Position numbers and translations under genes: made by a program. Source: a virus. From it: DNA of 20,835 bases. A model generated the notes under the pieces. That model saw only the letters and a program-made list of their open reading frames with translations, ran no database searches and was not told where the DNA came from. Location of the stretch: positions 1-20,835 of IMG/VR virus record IMGVR_UViG_3300048032_000088; one strand, given 5' to 3'. Shown piece by piece: positions 4,882 through 19,737 of this stretch (position 1 is its first letter; each line of letters opens with the position of its first letter).

Positions 4882-4918
4882 AAGCTCCTCTCGTCGTCGT
4901 ATTCGAGAGGAGCTTTTT
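4882..4918 (+). terminator. Intrinsic terminator after cassette gene 2
   Basis: A perfect 12-bp stem (4882-4893 with 4904-4915) encloses a 10-base loop and runs into TTTTT (4914-4918). It ends the cassette and separates it from the head operon. Confidence 0.9.
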
Positions 4919-4925
4919 CGTGTAA

Positions 4926-4931
4926 TTGACA
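4926..4931 (+). promoter_or_regulatory. AATTGACA start-associated motif before gpW-like gene
   Basis: TTGACA lies 22 bases before the ATG at 4948, just after the terminator. As a -35 box its -10 partner would fall on the start codon, so a sigma-70 role would require transcription to begin inside the gene. AATACGA (4941-4947) abuts the ATG. Confidence 0.5.
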
Positions 4932-4947
4932 TCGAGACGGAATACGA

Positions 4948-5190
4948 ATGGCCGCCACTACTTCTACAGCTCAGCTTATCGTTATAAGAGATAAGCTCCT
5001 TCTCGCTCTTAGCAAACTAGCAGAGGATGGAATTACGTCCTATAGTATAGGAGATCAGACGTTCTCTCTAGCGGACGTAGGAGATCTCCTTACGCAAGTA
5101 GAGCGACTAGATAAGCTAATAGCTCTAAAGGATCGGACGCTAGGCGGACGAGGACGGAATCGTATTACTTTAGAAAACTATAATGGCTAA
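4948..5190 (+). CDS. gpW-like head-tail joining protein
   Basis: 80 residues, close to the 68 of lambda gpW. The pattern is the same: a helix (about 8-28, LIVIRDKLLLALSKLAEDG), a short beta hairpin (about 31-40, SYSIGDQTFSL), a second helix (42-63, DVGDLLTQVERLDKLIALKD) and a basic tail. gpW-type proteins sit in the connector below the portal, where they close the packaged head and build the tail attachment surface. The gene lies immediately before the portal and overlaps it by 8 bases, just as W precedes B in lambda. Size, pattern and order together make this a good call. Confidence 0.75.
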   Translation: MAATTSTAQLIVIRDKLLLALSKLAEDGITSYSIGDQTFSLADVGDLLTQVERLDKLIALKDRTLGGRGRNRITLENYNG

Positions 5191-6874
5191 GAATAATAAA
5201 AAACCCACGCGCATAGGATTCGCTACGAAGCAATTTTTAAAAGCTTTTAGAGGATACGATGCTGTAAAGAATACTCGTTATCGCGCTCGTCGCGGAACGA
5301 ATCCGATCCGATCCGAAGAGATCGAGTTATCTAACTACGATCGTAATCAGCTCGTCTCTACTTGCTTAGAGTTCCGTCGAAATAATCCAGTCGTCGCGTC
5401 TCTATCGAGACTTCGGAAAGCGGATATCGTAGGACGAGGAATTATTCCTCAGCCGACTACTGGAGACGCGGATACAGACGCTAAGATTATAGAAGCGTGG
5501 AATAAGTTTTCTGAGAATCCTGAAGTAACTGGTATGCTCGATATGCGAGAGCTTCAACATCAGATGATCGACTCGCTCCTTTATTACGGAGACTGCGGAA
5601 TAATCGTAGGCAAGGATCAGCTACAATTTATAGACGGATCTAGAATCGGAAATCCTAACGGAGAAACTACTTCGGACGAGGACTCTAGCTTCCAGAACGG
5701 AGTAGAAGTAGATAAGATGGGTAAGCCCGTCTCTTACGCTGTAGGCAATCGAGTATCTGGGACTCTTAAAGATACTAAGCTAATCCCAGCGAGAGACTTT
5801 ATTCCGTTCCTAAAAAGAATCCGTCCTAATCAATATCGAGGAATCCCAGAGCTAGCTCCTGTAATCAATACCCTACAGGACTGCGACGAATACGATCGCG
5901 TCGAGATGATGGCCGCTAAAGTTAGCGCGTCTCTAGCGGTTGCTGTTAAGCGCGAGAACTCCTACGAGTTCGAACTACAGAATCGACTAGACGGAAGCGA
6001 GCAGGACGCTCTAGGCAATCTCGAAGAGTTCCAGCCTGGAAGATTCCACTATCTAGAACCTGGGGAAGACATAAGCGTTATCGGAGCGAACGGAAGACCG
6101 AACGTAGATGGTATCCAGTGGGTAAGTTATTTACTTAGAAAAGTAGGAAGCGCGGTAGGCATTCCGCTAGAGTTCCTTCTTATGGAGATCGGAGGAAGTT
6201 CTTTCTCCGCTTCTCAAGGCGTCGTTTTACAATATCAGCAAACAGTAGAGAACTATCAGACGGATCTTATTCGAGTAATGTCTCGACTCTATCGACGTTG
6301 GTTATCTCAGCAAATCGCTACTGATAAGTTCGATGTCTCTAACGCGAGTAATCCTTTCGGAGTCCGTTGGCAGCGTCCTGCTTTCCGTTGGATAAACAGG
6401 GCAGCGCAAGTTAAAGCGGATATGGATTACTTTAGAGCCGGCGCCATGTCGCTAGACGATATAACAGCTCCGTTCGGATATACAGCGGAGGACGTTATGA
6501 TTCGGAAGGCTCAGAATATAAGCCAAGCTAAGAAGATAGCGAAGGACTTTAATCTAGGATCTTGGTATGATCTAGTAAACTTCTATAATACTAGCGCGAG
6601 CGCGAACTTCTCCGATCTAACTACTCAGGAGCAGTTCAAGGCTCAGAGAGAGGACGCGGAAGAGAACGAAGTAGTTAGCGAGCCTCTTATTACTAAGATC
6701 GGAGCCGGAGGCGTAACTGCTATAGCGGAACTTATTAAAAATCTAGGAGAAGGACTTATCTCTTCTAGCCAAGTTATTAACATCTTAGTCTCCGTATTCG
6801 GATTATCCGAAGTAGAGGCTAAGAAGATCGCAGAATCGAACGTAATTCCGAAGCCCGTAGAGAATGAAGTCTAA
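5183..6874 (+). CDS. Portal protein, lambda type
   Basis: 563 residues, slightly longer than lambda gpB (533). Family landmarks are clear: residues 52-87 (NQLVSTCLEFRRNNPVVASL followed by DIVGRGI), the YYGDCGI strand-turn (134-140), NQYRGIPELAPVINTL (216-231) leading into a long helix, and VGSAVGIPLEFLLMEIGGSS (321-340) followed by the stem helices to about 375. The portal dodecamer forms the DNA entry channel, docks the terminase, and nucleates head assembly. Residues about 480-563 form an extension with a Gly-rich helical hairpin (KIGAGGVTAIAELIKNLGEG) not needed for the family fold. Its end overlaps the next gene by 11 bases. Confidence 0.92.
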   Translation: MAKNNKKPTRIGFATKQFLKAFRGYDAVKNTRYRARRGTNPIRSEEIELSNYDRNQLVSTCLEFRRNNPVVASLSRLRKADIVGRGIIPQPTTGDADTDAKIIEAWNKFSENPEVTGMLDMRELQHQMIDSLLYYGDCGIIVGKDQLQFIDGSRIGNPNGETTSDEDSSFQNGVEVDKMGKPVSYAVGNRVSGTLKDTKLIPARDFIPFLKRIRPNQYRGIPELAPVINTLQDCDEYDRVEMMAAKVSASLAVAVKRENSYEFELQNRLDGSEQDALGNLEEFQPGRFHYLEPGEDISVIGANGRPNVDGIQWVSYLLRKVGSAVGIPLEFLLMEIGGSSFSASQGVVLQYQQTVENYQTDLIRVMSRLYRRWLSQQIATDKFDVSNASNPFGVRWQRPAFRWINRAAQVKADMDYFRAGAMSLDDITAPFGYTAEDVMIRKAQNISQAKKIAKDFNLGSWYDLVNFYNTSASANFSDLTTQEQFKAQREDAEENEVVSEPLITKIGAGGVTAIAELIKNLGEGLISSSQVINILVSVFGLSEVEAKKIAESNVIPKPVENEV

Positions 6875-8900
6875 GAGTAGAATAGCTGTTAACGAGCCTC
6901 TAGGCGGGCTAGAATCGTCTTTAGAGACGAATAGCGACGAAGTATCTAAGACTATAGAGAAGTCGCTAGAAACGAAGCTAAAGGATCATAAGGAGGAAGT
7001 AGGATCGGATTCTAAGAAGCAGACTACTCTAAGGAAGCTAAAGATCGTCTTTAATCGAGGAGTCGGAGCTTATAAGAGTAATCCTTCTAGCGTCCGTCCT
7101 ACTGTTAAGAGTCCTGAGCAGTGGGCGCATGCTAGAGTAAACTCCTTCCTCTACGCTCTAAGGAATCTTAAATATCGCGGAGGTAAGCACGATACGGACT
7201 TACTTCCTAAGTCGCATCCTATGGCGGGCGAAAAGAAGAAAGCGGAGAGTCTGCGTAGTTATCCAGACGGAGAGTCGATTCCTTCGGAACTTCCAGAGAA
7301 GTATCGGAAGAGTCGGAAGGACGGAGAGACTAAAGGGCAGGCGTGTATTAACTGCGAATTTTTAGAGGAGACGGAGGATCATCGCTACTACTGCGATAAG
7401 TTCGAAGCTCCTGTCCGTCCTCAGTATTGGTGCGCTAAGTGGAAGAAGAGTAAGAACGCTCTCGCGGAGACTTATAACGATTATCCAGAGTCCGCTACTA
7501 ATAACGCTAAGAGAGCTTTAAAGTATCGAGACGAGAATCCTAAGAACAAATGCGGAACTCCAGTCGGATGGAAGCGAGCTAATCAGTTAGCTAGTAAGGA
7601 GAAGATAAGTAGATCTACGATCGCTCGAATGGCTTCCTTTAAAAGACACCAGCAACATAAGGACGTTCCTTACGACGAAGGATGCGGAGGACTAATGTGG
7701 GACGCCTGGGGAGGAGCTTCTGGAATAGAGTGGGCGATTCGAAAGCTCGCGCAAATTGACAAGGCTAAGACTAGTAGTATGTCGAAAAAATTTGCATTCG
7801 GCGTCTCTGGAATAAGTGAGACGCAAGTAGACCAAGATAGCGGAACTATGACTTCCGTATCTTTAATCTCCGTCGGTCCAGCTCTAGGACACGGACTATA
7901 CGTCGATAGTAAGTCTTTAGAAACTATCGAGGACGAACTAGACGGAACTAGACTTCCTGCCTATATTACGCATAGAGGAGCGATCTTCGAAGATCGACTT
8001 ACTCGCGAGATAGGAATGTTCGATAACTTTAGAATCGAAGGCGATAGACTCTTAGGAGACTTTCAAGCGTTCGATTCCTTTCGAGAGGATGACTCTCGCA
8101 AATATAATAGACTATTCGAGATAGCGGATAAGATGCCCGAACGATTCGGACTCTCTATCGTTTTCTCGGCTAACAGTGCGTGGTCTACGGCGGAGGGCGA
8201 TGTTTCTACCGACGATAAACCAGAGGACGCCTTATTCGATTATCCTTCTATTAGGGTCGAAGAGGTTTCTAGCGCAGACTTCGTGGATAGCCCTGCAGCA
8301 AACGAGCGGGGGTTATTCTCTAAAATTGACAACCCAATAACTCGTAAGATGACTAAAGCAGAACTCATAGAACTAACGGAGTCGCTCGAAGAAGAGAAAG
8401 TTTCTCTTCAGGAGCAGGCTAACCAAGCTTCCGTCGATAAGCTCGACGCTGAAGCGGAACTCGAAGGAGCTAAGTCTTCTTACGAGGAAAAAGAATCGGA
8501 ACTCGACGCTCTTAAAGCTGATCTCGCAGAGAAGCTCGAAGAGATCGAAGACCTTAAAGCGAAACTCGCGGAGAAGGAAGAGGAGCTAAATTCTAAGGAA
8601 GAAGCTATCTCTGAGAAGGACGAAGATCTCGCTAAGAAAGACGAAGAGCTAGAAGCTAGCGAAGAAGAAGAGGAGAAGATCAAAGCGGAGTCCGCAGAGC
8701 TTTCCTCTAAAGTCGTTAAACTCGAAAAGCTAATCGAAGGATCGGAGCTAGTAGAAGTATCTACTTCCGAAGAGATCTACGAGCCTAGCAAAGCGAATCG
8801 TTCTAAAATCATTTCTGAATTCGCTAAAGAAAACGGAATCTCTGAATTCGCGGCTACTCTCCGTCTAGGAAAAGAACGCCCTGAAATCTTTAAACTATAA
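6864..8900 (+). CDS. Head protein: N-terminal phage domain, prohead protease, scaffold
   Basis: 678 residues in three modules. Module 1 (1-305) carries VKSPEQWAHARVNSFLYALR (81-100), a four-Cys site (C161, C164, C177, C190) that could bind zinc or an iron-sulfur cluster, and the segment GWKRANQLA through CGGLMWDAWGG (235-284), which I recall as a recurrent domain of phage head proteins without a set function. Module 2 (306-495) looks like a U35-style prohead protease: H370 in YITHRG, S431 in GLSIVFS, and EEVSSADFVDSPAAN (466-480, E467 as third catalytic candidate). Module 3 (496-678) is an acidic coiled coil typical of a scaffold. It lies between portal and decoration genes, like lambda C with nested Nu3. 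In-frame ATGs at 7779 and 8349 start modules 2 and 3, each preceded by AATTGACA, so shorter forms are likely made. Confidence 0.82.
   Translation: MKSKSRIAVNEPLGGLESSLETNSDEVSKTIEKSLETKLKDHKEEVGSDSKKQTTLRKLKIVFNRGVGAYKSNPSSVRPTVKSPEQWAHARVNSFLYALRNLKYRGGKHDTDLLPKSHPMAGEKKKAESLRSYPDGESIPSELPEKYRKSRKDGETKGQACINCEFLEETEDHRYYCDKFEAPVRPQYWCAKWKKSKNALAETYNDYPESATNNAKRALKYRDENPKNKCGTPVGWKRANQLASKEKISRSTIARMASFKRHQQHKDVPYDEGCGGLMWDAWGGASGIEWAIRKLAQIDKAKTSSMSKKFAFGVSGISETQVDQDSGTMTSVSLISVGPALGHGLYVDSKSLETIEDELDGTRLPAYITHRGAIFEDRLTREIGMFDNFRIEGDRLLGDFQAFDSFREDDSRKYNRLFEIADKMPERFGLSIVFSANSAWSTAEGDVSTDDKPEDALFDYPSIRVEEVSSADFVDSPAANERGLFSKIDNPITRKMTKAELIELTESLEEEKVSLQEQANQASVDKLDAEAELEGAKSSYEEKESELDALKADLAEKLEEIEDLKAKLAEKEEELNSKEEAISEKDEDLAKKDEELEASEEEEEKIKAESAELSSKVVKLEKLIEGSELVEVSTSEEIYEPSKANRSKIISEFAKENGISEFAATLRLGKERPEIFKL
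7756..7761 (+). promoter_or_regulatory. AATTGACA motif before internal protease start
   Basis: TTGACA lies 23 bases before the in-frame ATG at 7779, inside the coding sequence. It forces the rare pair ATT-GAC for Ile-Asp, whereas nearly all other Ile-Asp pairs here begin ATC. The same context (AAATTGACAA) recurs 23 bases before the ATG at 8349. Confidence 0.55.
7779..8900 (+). CDS. Nested start: prohead protease plus scaffold
   Basis: ATG at 7779 is codon 306 of the 678-residue frame and would give a 373-residue protein starting MSKKFAFGVSGI. It begins exactly where the protease-like module begins. Phage maturation proteases cut the scaffold and themselves inside the prohead; the scaffold being joined to the protease and also made alone from a nested start is the known lambda C/Nu3 arrangement. 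The putative active site in this numbering is H65, S126 and E162; H65 equals the position reported for HK97 protease, which may be coincidence. The upstream AATTGACA is the main sequence evidence that this start is used. Whether the longer form from 6864 is also made cannot be told. Confidence 0.55.
   Translation: MSKKFAFGVSGISETQVDQDSGTMTSVSLISVGPALGHGLYVDSKSLETIEDELDGTRLPAYITHRGAIFEDRLTREIGMFDNFRIEGDRLLGDFQAFDSFREDDSRKYNRLFEIADKMPERFGLSIVFSANSAWSTAEGDVSTDDKPEDALFDYPSIRVEEVSSADFVDSPAANERGLFSKIDNPITRKMTKAELIELTESLEEEKVSLQEQANQASVDKLDAEAELEGAKSSYEEKESELDALKADLAEKLEEIEDLKAKLAEKEEELNSKEEAISEKDEDLAKKDEELEASEEEEEKIKAESAELSSKVVKLEKLIEGSELVEVSTSEEIYEPSKANRSKIISEFAKENGISEFAATLRLGKERPEIFKL
8326..8331 (+). 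promoter_or_regulatory. AATTGACA motif before internal scaffold start
   Basis: TTGACA lies 23 bases before the in-frame ATG at 8349, in context AAATTGACAA, coding Lys-Ile-Asp-Asn with the uncommon ATT-GAC pair. Spacing is identical to the element at 7756. Confidence 0.55.
8349..8900 (+). CDS. Nested start: capsid scaffold protein
   Basis: ATG at 8349 is codon 496 of the large frame and gives a 183-residue protein. Residues 1 to about 125 are an almost unbroken Glu/Lys/Leu/Ala coiled coil (for example LAEKLEEIEDLKAKLAEKEE), and the end (about 145-183) is a compact helical part with SKIISEFAKENGISEFAATL. A rod with a small basic-helical C-terminus is the usual form of scaffolds that bind the inside of the coat lattice. 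Placement before decoration and capsid genes fits. In lambda the scaffold Nu3 is made from a separate start inside gene C; this frame reproduces that layout. Confidence 0.6.
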   Translation: MTKAELIELTESLEEEKVSLQEQANQASVDKLDAEAELEGAKSSYEEKESELDALKADLAEKLEEIEDLKAKLAEKEEELNSKEEAISEKDEDLAKKDEELEASEEEEEKIKAESAELSSKVVKLEKLIEGSELVEVSTSEEIYEPSKANRSKIISEFAKENGISEFAATLRLGKERPEIFKL

Positions 8901-10244: not shown

Positions 10245-10274
10245 AAGCCCTCTCGATTCGTCGAGGGGGCTTTC
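10245..10274 (+). terminator. Intrinsic terminator after major capsid gene
   Basis: A 12-bp stem (10245-10256 with 10261-10272, one G-T pair) with TTCG loop, preceded by an A-run and followed by a T-rich tail TTTCTTATTT. It separates head from tail transcription, so the tail genes need a promoter in 10275-10298 or read-through. Confidence 0.88.
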
Positions 10275-10298
10275 TTATTTACAGACGTATATAAGTAG

Positions 10299-10841
10299 AT
10301 GAGCCTAACAGATCTTATAAACGATAATCTAAAGTTCGCTATATCTCAGATAAGCGTCACTTTAGACGCTAGATTCGATATCCTCACGGAATCTCAAACA
10401 GGATCTCTCACTGCTAACGGAACTGAGGTTAATATAGGAGGATCTGGACTAGATACGTCCGCTACTCACGTAAGAGTAACCTCTTCGCCCATCTCCGAAT
10501 ATAACGGAATCTTTCCTATAGATTCTATGAGTTCCGTCTTCGTAAGTTATTCCGCAGCTGGTCCAGCAGGAGGCCCAGTTAGCTGTAATATAGAAGTAGG
10601 AACTACTACTAGATATACAGCTAATAAGCAGGACGTAGAGAGCGGATTCGAAATCTTCGAGGACGGACGAGAAGAGAATATAGATACTAAGTTCTATATC
10701 GCTCGATCCGAATACTCCGTCCTTCCGTCTAAAGGAGAGATCCTTTCCGACGGAACTACTAGCTTTAAAGTAATGTCCGTTCACGACGACGCTGTAGGAG
10801 TTACTCGTCGTCTCGATTGCGCTTCTGAATTCCAGAGATAA
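10299..10841 (+). CDS. Neck protein, probable head-tail stopper
   Basis: 180 residues, beta-rich. The N-terminus is a short helix (MSLTDLINDNLKFAISQI), then alternating strands. The ending PSKGEILSDGTTSFKVMSVH (143-162) followed by GVTRRLDC (168-175) matches in style the C-terminal strands of FII-like stopper proteins, where a Gly turn, a strand with Y/F-x-V and a basic strand close the barrel. It is the first gene after the capsid terminator and precedes the tail terminator, which is the usual stopper position. Residues about 38-105 (GSLTANGTEVNIGGSGLD and on) look like an inserted beta domain. The leader at 10275-10298 has no Shine-Dalgarno; GTATATAAG (10285-10293) is a possible -10 region. 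Confidence 0.6.
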   Translation: MSLTDLINDNLKFAISQISVTLDARFDILTESQTGSLTANGTEVNIGGSGLDTSATHVRVTSSPISEYNGIFPIDSMSSVFVSYSAAGPAGGPVSCNIEVGTTTRYTANKQDVESGFEIFEDGREENIDTKFYIARSEYSVLPSKGEILSDGTTSFKVMSVHDDAVGVTRRLDCASEFQR

Positions 10842-10843
10842 CC

Positions 10844-11647
10844 ATGAATATACTAGACTTCGAGACCAACTTCGAGACTGTAGCTAAAGAGTTTCTAGCG
10901 ACGGATTTAAGTTCGTTTACCTCTCTTCAGTTCTCTTCTTCTTTAGATAGGAGTAACTTTACTCTTCCTAGATTAGAGATTAATGCGGAGCTACAAGGCG
11001 CGGAAGATCCTCCTACTAAAGATTCCTTCGGAAGACTTAACTATTCTCAGTATTCTCTAAATTTAGAGATAAAGATTATTACGGATATGAGTAGCGACGT
11101 AGCGGACGAAGCTACAGGATTAGATCCTAGCAACCTACATAGGAAATTAAGAGAAGAAGTAAGAACTTCTATGTTACTAAGCTCTAGTAACTGGACCACT
11201 CCTAAGGCGGACTCCGTTATCGTAAGCGGAGCGGGATCTTCTATAGTAAACGGAACTTATAGTAAGACAGGAACTTTAAACAACAGAGGTGTTTATACTA
11301 AGCCCGCAGGAGCTTCCTATGGGAAAATTTACTATGACAATTCTCTGCCAACACCTTTCGATTGGGCGATATCCGTAGAAGGAGAATCTTCCGAAGATAT
11401 CTTCTATCTTGGCTACGCAGCAGGAGCCTCTTTTTTCCCATACGACGCTTCCTCTTGGTCTACTGTCGTAGATAACGCTTCCGATCCTCGTCCTAGCGTT
11501 TCTCAGGGATATATCCTAGAGGACTACGAAGTAAAGTATATGCGTCCCGCAGGGACTGACTACGAAGTAGACGGAGACTTAGGAATATCGACTTTAACTT
11601 ACGAAATAAAATTCACTACGATTCCTTCTAGATTGGAAGCCTCTTAA
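10844..11647 (+). CDS. Tail terminator-like protein with an inserted domain
   Basis: 267 residues, about twice the 120-150 usual for tail terminators. The outer parts fit the family: residues 1-120 hold the helix MNILDFETNFETVAKEFL, strands (SLNLEIKIITDM, 71-82) and a helix LHRKLREEVRTSML; residues 222-262 (GYILEDYEVKYMRP, then TLTYEIKFTTI) give the closing strands. Between them, about 124-220 reads as a separate beta domain (SGAGSSIVNGTYSKTGTLNN at 128-147, then YGKIYYDNSL and PFDWAIS), a pattern I recall from ornamental, perhaps carbohydrate-binding, domains on phage virions. Tail terminators form the ring that stops tube growth and joins tail to neck. Codons in the insert (GGT, CTG, CCA, ACA around 11288-11360) differ from the flanks. 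Confidence 0.6.
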   Translation: MNILDFETNFETVAKEFLATDLSSFTSLQFSSSLDRSNFTLPRLEINAELQGAEDPPTKDSFGRLNYSQYSLNLEIKIITDMSSDVADEATGLDPSNLHRKLREEVRTSMLLSSSNWTTPKADSVIVSGAGSSIVNGTYSKTGTLNNRGVYTKPAGASYGKIYYDNSLPTPFDWAISVEGESSEDIFYLGYAAGASFFPYDASSWSTVVDNASDPRPSVSQGYILEDYEVKYMRPAGTDYEVDGDLGISTLTYEIKFTTIPSRLEAS

Positions 11648-11653
11648 TTGACA
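11648..11653 (+). promoter_or_regulatory. AATTGACA motif, distant copy before tube candidate
   Basis: TTGACA, in AATTGACAA as at the other sites, but 55 bases before the next ATG (11703). Here a sigma-70 role is geometrically possible, though the hexamer 17 bases downstream (TCACTA, 11671-11676) is a poor -10 box. Confidence 0.4.
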
Positions 11654-11702: not shown

Positions 11703-12029
11703 ATGGCTATCGTATCAGACGGAACCCAAAGGTTCGCTATTGAAAATGTAACTTTCGACGGACTAATCGTCGAAAGCTACACGCTAACAAGTCCCGCCAA
11801 TCGAGTAGATCTCGACGACGGAAACGGAGAGCCTCTAGGAGCTACTACAGTTCCTCAGAGACAGGAAGTATCTCTTACTGTTCAAGTCGGAGCTACTGCT
11901 CCTACTCTCGCAGTAGGCGACGAAGTAACTTACGATAGTAATACTATTATCGTTACCTCCGTAGATCTTAACGAGACACAAGCGGACTATCAGCGTTTAT
12001 CAGTAAGCGGATACGTTAAAACTAACTAA
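11703..12029 (+). CDS. Small beta-rich tail protein, tail tube candidate
   Basis: 108 residues, predicted almost entirely as strands: RFAIENVTFDGLIVESYTLT (10-29), a loop rich in Asp and Gly (VDLDDGNGEPLG), QRQEVSLTVQVGA, and TIIVTSVDLNETQADYQRLS near the end. It lies between the tail terminator and the assembly chaperone, exactly where the major tail protein belongs. It is short for a tube protein (150-250 is usual), so it would be a minimal tube fold; it could instead be a tube-associated protein, but no other tube candidate precedes the tape measure. The 55-base leader without Shine-Dalgarno and the AATTGACA upstream suggest separate control, as expected for an abundant protein. Confidence 0.5.
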   Translation: MAIVSDGTQRFAIENVTFDGLIVESYTLTSPANRVDLDDGNGEPLGATTVPQRQEVSLTVQVGATAPTLAVGDEVTYDSNTIIVTSVDLNETQADYQRLSVSGYVKTN

Positions 12030-17741: not shown

Positions 17742-18748
17742 TGAAAATAGCCACAGTAATCGTCGCGACTAAATCCTATATCGATCCTCTAGAGGTATGC
17801 CTAAGGAGAGTTAAGTGCGCTATGGATTACGCTTCGAAAGATATAGAGCATAGACTTATAGTCGTTACGGATAACGAGAGTAAGAAGAAGCTAGAGAATA
17901 TAACGGAAGGATTCGAGAGAGATATATTATCTATCGATCTAGAGGAGAGCGGAGAACACTATAAGAAGGATAGACAGATCCTTATCGCTACTCTTCAGTC
18001 CGTAGGATTCGATCGCGCTCGTAACTGGGGATGCGATCTTCTCTGGAGTGTAGAAGCGGACGTTCTAGTTCCGCATAACGCTCTATCCGTATCTCTAGAT
18101 ATGCTTAGATTCGATAACGGATACTACGACGTAGCCTTCGTTACTTATCCTTCTCAAGGCGGAGGAAGCTTCCTAGGAGGATACGGAAGCTATACGCATC
18201 CTATCGCGGAGGACTTTCTACCAGAGGAGAGAACTCTTCCTAGTAAGCTAAAGATATTACTAGAGTCCTGCGAAGAGAGACTAAAGAATAAGGATATATC
18301 GACAGAGTCCTTCGAGAAGGAGAATAAGAGAATGTCTCGTATCTACGATAGAATTAAGAAGTGTCCTCCTAGCGGAAACGTCTTCGAGCTAAACGCTAAG
18401 AAGTGGAGACGTAGAGGCTGGCTAGATAATAGCCATGTCGGAACGGGTAGAGGAGCAGTAATCGAGACGGACTGGACTGGCTTAGGTTGCACTCTAATGA
18501 GTTACAAAGCTGCATCTCTAGCTCACTTCGACGGATACGACGGAGGAGGAACTCAGGATCTATATCTTAACTGGAGGAAGTGGCACCCAGAAGGATTACG
18601 CTTCTGCTGTATAACCCACACGGTCTGCGACCACGTAGTAAGAGACGATAAGGAAGGGCTCGTAGTTCTAAAGAGTTACCACGAAACAGAAGGAGAAGCT
18701 AGAGGACATCTAAGATTTAGGAGAGCCCCTTTTCACAAATTTATATGA
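17741..18748 (+). CDS. GT-A-like glycosyltransferase
   Basis: 335 residues. The N-terminus is a Rossmann-type start, MKIATVIVATKSYIDPLEVC, with a strand, loop and helix like nucleotide-sugar GT-A enzymes. SVEADVLVP (103-111) provides an acidic E-x-D pair at the place of the DxD metal and nucleotide site. Later YGSYTHPIAEDF, DWTGLGCTLMSYKA and GGTQDLYLNWRKW resemble the acceptor side of GT2-like enzymes, including an acidic residue that could act as base. It has no membrane segment, so it works in the cytoplasm. Its ATG shares one base with the previous stop, and the next gene overlaps by 4 bases. With the dehydratase-like neighbour it forms a sugar-attachment pair. The substrate and acceptor are unknown. 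Confidence 0.65.
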   Translation: MKIATVIVATKSYIDPLEVCLRRVKCAMDYASKDIEHRLIVVTDNESKKKLENITEGFERDILSIDLEESGEHYKKDRQILIATLQSVGFDRARNWGCDLLWSVEADVLVPHNALSVSLDMLRFDNGYYDVAFVTYPSQGGGSFLGGYGSYTHPIAEDFLPEERTLPSKLKILLESCEERLKNKDISTESFEKENKRMSRIYDRIKKCPPSGNVFELNAKKWRRRGWLDNSHVGTGRGAVIETDWTGLGCTLMSYKAASLAHFDGYDGGGTQDLYLNWRKWHPEGLRFCCITHTVCDHVVRDDKEGLVVLKSYHETEGEARGHLRFRRAPFHKFI

Positions 18749-19731
18749 AGACACTATTAGTAACAGGAAGCGCAGGATTCGTCGGATCTCATACAGTAGA
18801 TTGGGCTATTAAGAATACGGACTGGAAGATAATCGGACTCGATTCTTTTCGTCACATGGGAGACGCGGAGCGAGTATCCGAAGATCCTCGATACTCGATG
18901 ATCTGCCACGATCTTAACTCTCCTATCTCGAAGAGAACTAAGTCTAGAATAGGAGACGTAGATTATATTATTAACTGCGCGTCTATCTCGCACGTCGATA
19001 CTTCGATCGAAGATCCTATCTACGTCTGGGAGTCTAATACTCGACTTATGGGAAACATCTTAGAGTTCGCTCGCGAGCTTCCTAGTCTAGAAAAGTTTAT
19101 TCACTGCTCGACGGACGAAGTATTCGGATCTGCTTACGGAGATCACTGCCACCACGAGTGGGACGTTATCGCTCCTTCTAATCCTTACGCTGCGTCTAAA
19201 GCCGCGCAGGACGCTCTAGCTTTCGCTTACTGGAGGACTTACGGAACTCCGATCGCGATAACGCACTGTATGAATATGATCGGAACGAAGCAAGATCCTG
19301 AGAAGTATCTTCCGAAGATCGTATCTCGCGTGCATAAAGGAGAGAGCGTTACGGTCCACGGGCAACCAGATAAAGTAGGATCGAGGATGTATATCGACTG
19401 CCGTAATCTAGCGGACGCTTGGTTATTCATGTTAAAGGAAGTCGATTTCGCTAAATACGGAGAGAAGTATAGTCGAATGACTAAATTCAATATAGCAGGA
19501 CTAGAGGAGATAACGAATCTAGAACTAGCTAAGAAGATCGCAGATAGGATGAATAAGGATTTAATATACGAGTTCGTAGACTTTCACAGGACTAGAGCAG
19601 GACACGATCTTCGATACGCTCTAGATAGTAGTAAGATCTACGAAGCAGGATGGCGTCCTCCTATCGAGCTAGAACAGACTTTCGACGAAGTAATCGGACA
19701 CGTTAGAGACCACGAAGAGTGGCAGGAATAA
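18745..19731 (+). CDS. dTDP-glucose 4,6-dehydratase-like NAD-dependent enzyme
   Basis: 328 residues, the normal length for extended short-chain dehydrogenases. The NAD-binding motif GSAGFVG lies at 8-14, the catalytic Thr-Asp-Glu of RmlB-type dehydratases in STDEVFG (122-128), and the Tyr-Lys pair in NPYAASK (Y148, K152). RAGHDLRYALD (284-294) is the C-terminal substrate-binding signature of RmlB-type proteins. The TDE triad, rather than a plain Ser, argues for a 4,6-dehydratase acting on a nucleotide sugar and making a 4-keto-6-deoxy sugar. It overlaps the glycosyltransferase by 4 bases, so the two are co-translated and probably work in one pathway. The exact nucleotide carrier (dTDP, CDP or GDP) cannot be read from the sequence. 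Confidence 0.82.
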   Translation: MKTLLVTGSAGFVGSHTVDWAIKNTDWKIIGLDSFRHMGDAERVSEDPRYSMICHDLNSPISKRTKSRIGDVDYIINCASISHVDTSIEDPIYVWESNTRLMGNILEFARELPSLEKFIHCSTDEVFGSAYGDHCHHEWDVIAPSNPYAASKAAQDALAFAYWRTYGTPIAITHCMNMIGTKQDPEKYLPKIVSRVHKGESVTVHGQPDKVGSRMYIDCRNLADAWLFMLKEVDFAKYGEKYSRMTKFNIAGLEEITNLELAKKIADRMNKDLIYEFVDFHRTRAGHDLRYALDSSKIYEAGWRPPIELEQTFDEVIGHVRDHEEWQE

Positions 19732-19737
19732 TTGACA
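19732..19737 (+). promoter_or_regulatory. AATTGACA start-associated motif before fibre gene 2
   Basis: TTGACA directly follows the stop codon of the dehydratase gene and lies 21 bases before the ATG at 19753. A T-rich stretch (CTTTTTAA) fills the space before the ATG, with no Shine-Dalgarno sequence. Confidence 0.5.

Follow-up and report, generated by a model that had tools for sequence, protein, structure and literature searches.

How a single reading frame might yield several head proteins is the question raised by a 678-codon gene in the late region of a marine phage. The usual explanation of nested scaffold genes is that ribosomes start internally, and a first-pass annotation of this DNA had read the short, identical word upstream of two in-frame ATGs as a marker of nested translation starts. 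Here, the gene was analyzed in the window (i.e., the whole 20.8-kb virus record of 20,835 nucleotides) and in relatives collected by IMG/VR searches, which returned many matches.

A probable nested protease-scaffold gene

ORF calls and family matches gave a lambda-type order for the late genes of the window: large terminase (PF05876/PF20454), a gpW-like ORF, a lambda-family portal (PF05136), the 678-aa ORF, a cement protein (PF09956), and the major capsid protein (PHROG 1005). The translation of the 678-aa ORF (6864-8900, + strand) comprises N-terminal mobile modules, a protease module, and a coiled-coil scaffold, so that the scaffold sits in frame within the protease gene, with portal and capsid genes flanking. 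Codon 306 (ATG 7779) opens a nested ORF of 373 aa for protease plus scaffold (7779-8900, + strand), and codon 496 (ATG 8349) opens one of 183 aa for the coiled-coil scaffold (8349-8900, + strand), which confirms the coordinates and lengths given in the first-pass annotation. Among GenBank phages, neither the capsid nor the protease-scaffold part had a relative.

The N-terminal modules, which are found also in unrelated marine contigs, are mobile (window 6936-7410 and 7461-7770). Residues 25-182 of the ORF recur in Roseobacter, Salinibacter, and haloarchaeal viruses, and residues 200-302 recur in many marine contigs. The module spanning residues 306-495 has an invariant His and Ser and may be related to T4 gp21 and the herpesvirus capsid proteases, which were the top fold matches of its structure model, a model of moderate confidence (mean pLDDT 73). 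The similarity in fold is weak, with a best E of 0.02 and a TM of about 0.4, and neither Pfam nor PHROGs gave a protease match.

Conservation of the TTGACA words

The window has just two copies of the word AAATTGACAA (7753 and 8323). As described previously, the same element precedes each inner ATG by 23 bases: TTGACA begins 23 nt before ATG 7779 and before ATG 8349, with a spacer of 17 nt. The related word AATTGACA is present five times, compared with 0.21 copies expected from dinucleotide shuffles, and all five are on the + strand. Two of these copies belong to the inner elements of the protease (P site, 7754-7761, + strand) and the scaffold (S site, 8324-8331, + strand), and the remaining three, at 4924, 11646, and 19730, were absent from the first-pass annotation. 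Its remark that ATT-GAC is a rare choice for Ile-Asp was also borne out, as only 3 of 34 such pairs in the window use it, two of the three being the P and S sites. TTGA itself is strongly avoided in the coding sequence of the window (19 seen vs. 83 in synonymous shuffles), and the TTGACA words stand out because of this avoidance and the rarity of ATT-GAC.

At the protease start, TTGACA and the ATG were kept in 59 of 60 readable contigs (47 distinct contexts; these are contigs, not independent events), with a distance of 17, 14, or, once, 13 nt between them; the remaining contig has TTGACG. At the scaffold start, TTGACA-N17-ATG was found in 56 of 62 readable relatives (39 distinct contexts, again not independent events). 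Both inner ATGs and the TTGAC words are kept at the nucleotide level in the majority of relatives, a point that the first-pass annotation had proposed to check in an alignment of homologs. Homologs without the words, which it would have counted as refutation, were found at the scaffold start, where six of the 62 relatives lack the word yet retain the ATG.

Synonymous sites were scanned in a codon alignment of 26 non-redundant homologs with a median pairwise nucleotide identity of 64%. Conservation peaked exactly at both TTGACA words, with z-values of 5.7 (P site, the top peak) and 4.6 (S site), the SD over all windows of the scan being 1.6. Further peaks fell on the codons just after the protease and scaffold ATGs (z = 4.8 and 3.0), a pattern that would be expected of real starts. 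In contigs L015 and L091, Ile is replaced by Leu while TTGACA is unchanged, and in L105 the upstream frame is shifted, although this shift may stem from misread bases in a homopolymer of A. In L133 the N-terminal modules are gone and the protease is a separate gene that begins at the "internal" ATG; TTGACA-N17-ATG is retained, and TTGACA now encodes Leu-Thr in the frame of the portal gene, at its end. This arrangement supports ATG 7779 as a true start and argues strongly against a protein-level cause for conservation of the word. Because synonymous conservation peaks at the words and TTGACA survives in the portal frame of L133, selection acts on nucleotides. With both internal ATGs conserved among relatives as starts of the protease and scaffold modules, the nested starts are well supported, and it is highly probable that the long ORF joins mobile N-terminal modules to a prohead protease with a nested coiled-coil scaffold and that ATGs 7779 and 8349 are real starts.

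The element at other late genes and in a second clade

The element is not restricted to nested starts. A AATTGACA copy at 4924-4931 (+ strand) lies 16 nt before the ATG (4948) of the gpW-like gene (4948-5190, + strand; 80 aa, its name taken solely from its place and its conservation), just downstream of a terminator-like hairpin and T run (4883-4918, + strand) recognized by sequence reading. In 28 distinct contexts from relatives, TTGACA occurs 14-17 nt before the gpW ATG with a terminator-like hairpin, of varying sequence, preceding it. Another copy (19730-19737, + strand) is 15 nt before the ATG of g21 (19753), with TTGACA at 15-16 nt in relatives. The copy upstream of a tail gene, called MTP by position (11646-11653, + strand), is 49 nt before ATG 11703, and the corresponding distance in relatives is 37-56 nt. 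Sequence reading also identified TTTACA (10278-10283, + strand), a variant of the element, behind a hairpin and about 15-16 nt before the ATG of g11. The cement, capsid, portal, and terminase starts have no TTGACA element. Across 251 starts of seven genomes, TTGACA at 13-18 nt upstream was among the most enriched words (15 seen vs. 0.6 expected, a figure inflated by the kinship of these genomes).

Other candidate features were rejected. The hairpin that precedes the element at gpW and g11 is not general, and the word TAACCT, which is enriched near starts, was discounted as part of a leader repeated before small inserted genes. In the tail-gene leaders of the window clade, a small hairpin that follows the element folds in some relatives only and not in the window.

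Contigs of a second clade (clade 2) have a 42-47% identical capsid protein and keep the gene order. In five of them (L157, L158, L164, L169, and L170, some of which are closely related), an element of ~26 bp is common to the gpW, scaffold, and tail sites and reads, depending on the genome, AAGGTAGACGTTTCGnCCTTTAGTA, AAAGGGTGACAAATnnACtAAGGGTA, or AAGGTTGACACCGGGCCCATTTATAG. The three to five copies in one genome are similar, whereas those of different genomes differ. When each locus was scanned with its own gpW copy, the tail site ranked first or second and the scaffold site was within the first few matches; in four loci a further match preceded a gene upstream of gpW. Weight matrices placed three to five sites per locus, all on one strand, at 30-43 bits and the rest below 12 bits, a gap that is partly by construction because the matrices were built from these very sites. 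The internal layout of the element is constant but its distance to the ATG is variable: the gap is 0-13 nt at gpW and scaffold and tens of nt at the tail gene. The amino acids encoded at the scaffold site change with the element (Val-Asp, Gly-Asp). No copy of the ~26-bp element was found at the clade-2 protease start, and no shared element was evident by eye in L163, L165, L171, and L172. The tail-gene leaders of clade 2 can form a hairpin whose first base lies a few nt beyond the element and in which L164 and L170 differ by one compensatory change, in keeping with an RNA that would start at the 3′ edge of the element.

Three further observations concern non-coding sequence. The window (at about 585-640) and other relatives have a conserved block, GTCGGTTTAGTCGTGTTT, in the interval from the small-terminase ORF to g2, and 66-68 nt matches to the ends of the tmRNA model occur near g2 in L015 (1209-1274) and L124 (2437-2504); the block and these matches may represent a small structured RNA. 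A cluster of TTGACA/TGTCAA repeats, operator-like in appearance, occurs just before the first late-region genes (G001, 17810-18067; G002, 20849-21129; G005, 113-237, including TTGACAcgTGTCAA; G004, 1730-1842). Lastly, a promoter-like cassette is repeated in G002 at 11967, 19336, 25641, 26465, and 31631, where it precedes several small inserted genes; it consists of GTGAATA..GGTATTGAC ... TATCTTTCATATCG, followed by a hairpin and a TAACCTAAAA..ACACGAC leader.

A candidate late promoter and its alternatives

The element is conserved at the nucleotide level, stands at the head of several genes, and is similar within a genome while diverging between genomes. We consider it somewhat better than an even bet (roughly 55%) that each TTGACA word forms one box of a late promoter that is short, directional, and specific to the phage. 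Constant layout, a single orientation, and placement at the heads of units, often behind terminator-like hairpins, are traits that a promoter would show. Because the element is genome-specific, its copies are alike within a genome, and its spacing from the ATG is variable, a promoter that co-evolves with its reader is favored over a ribosome signal. We infer that the transcription machinery recognizes the element as DNA, through a phage or host factor, and that its 3′ edge, or a position close by, would be where RNA starts. From the inner copies, separate mRNAs with short or no leaders would then arise: a protease-plus-scaffold mRNA from the P site, and from the S site an mRNA that would cover scaffold, cement, and major capsid protein and end at the terminator-like hairpin that follows the capsid gene (about 10247-10270). 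The gpW, tail, and g21 units would each be headed by one of the remaining copies. Several findings count against a promoter: in the window clade, the words at gpW, protease, and scaffold stand at an almost constant distance from the ATG, which a translation signal would need as well; the same clade has a degenerate Box B; the scaffold copy is absent in six relatives; and the element fits no known promoter class.

No RNA polymerase or recognized late activator gene was found in the relatives (the control of the polymerase-family search was silent), and in G001, which is near-complete, no ORF large enough for a polymerase is left unexplained. G001 does encode a small HTH protein and a DnaA-C-like protein (a PF08299 match that scores below the curated cut-off); G002 and G003 have both, and the corresponding genes of L134 lie at 10907-11215 (HTH) and 10563-10913 (DnaA-C-like). 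The genes common to G001 and a clade-2 contig, among which a reader was sought, were packaging and structural only. A host search of GTDB genomes with the major-capsid alignment gave no relative. Missing Shine-Dalgarno (SD) words and a BT4734-like primase domain hint at a Bacteroidota host, and the Bacteroidota-type promoter TTG-N-TAnnTTTG was not enriched on the coding strand. We tentatively suggest, at less than even odds, that these uncultured marine siphophages, with no RNA polymerase of their own, use a compact, rapidly diversifying late promoter at which a phage factor would redirect the host polymerase, and that a promoter inside the protease-scaffold gene would yield the nested proteins from separate, nearly leaderless mRNAs.

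The main rival to the promoter generalizes the shared start signal of the first-pass annotation: the word would act within a long late mRNA to promote internal translation starts, either as the binding site of a phage or ribosomal factor or as the target of an endonuclease. Such a role agrees with the nearly fixed spacing (14-17 nt) that the window clade shows at gpW, protease, and scaffold, and the strand bias suits RNA as well as DNA. Moreover, SD-like words are missing from almost all genes of this clade, which leaves room for other start signals, although this scarcity may be a property of the host. An RNA-level role is harder to reconcile with the tail-gene copy about 50 nt upstream of its ATG, with clade-2 copies ending anywhere from 0-13 nt to tens of nt before theirs, with well-expressed genes such as cement and capsid that have no word, and with the frequent position of the word after terminator-like hairpins; we regard it as possible but rather unlikely. 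The same tail-gene distance, the copies before gpW and g21, and the genome-specific element of clade 2 with its variable spacing do not fit the view of the element as a marker of nested starts.

TTGACA is also the textbook -35 hexamer of sigma-70, and ordinary host promoters of this type would have -35 and -10 boxes 16-18 bp apart and an RNA start before the gene. That arrangement was not found: the reading fails because, with a 17-bp spacer, the -10 box would begin on the ATG, where there is no TATAAT-like word. RNA would start inside genes, and the clade-2 elements (TAGAC, GTGACA) are not -35 boxes, making sigma-70 promoters very improbable. Finally, Ile-Asp might be kept for the protein, e.g., as a maturation cleavage site, with the DNA word merely following, given that the words lie at module borders and encode Ile-Asp in most relatives, but this is contradicted by the synonymous constraint, the different frame in L133 and perhaps L105, the non-coding copies at gpW, the tail gene, and g21, and the clade-2 residues that follow each genome's own element, and it can be given hardly any weight.

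The comparative evidence points to a conserved element before each inner product and other late units, with copies that diverge in concert from one phage lineage to another. Should it be a promoter, both the running of late genes without an obvious polymerase and the setting of scaffold, protease, and capsid protein ratios become testable. Promoters of T7-type phages are compact, occur in several copies, some of them inside genes, and vary in sequence between related phages. The element described here is likewise compact (about 23-26 bp), multicopy, partly intragenic, and different among related phages, but its internal layout differs and no single-subunit RNA polymerase gene was found (no match to the T7-type polymerase family PF00940 in 14 contigs, a search whose control was silent). 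In-frame nested scaffold genes are known; no description of such an element, of intragenic scaffold promoters, or of a conserved promoter-like element before both nested products was found in the open-access literature searched. In lambda, the scaffold Nu3 is encoded by an in-frame nested gene, and the analogy drawn in the first-pass annotation holds for gene architecture: as in lambda C/Nu3 and the Mu type, the scaffold lies in frame in the 3′ part of the protease gene, before the decoration and capsid genes, and its inner ATG is conserved, even in the six relatives that have no word. Mu and PaMx73 have an in-frame nested scaffold whose inner start carries an SD word (PMC4378225), whereas an SD-like word was present in none of 34 distinct scaffold-start contexts here and in 11 of 38 distinct protease-start contexts. 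Unlike the lambda and Mu type, two inner products are proposed in the present phage, each behind a conserved element that it has in common with other late genes.
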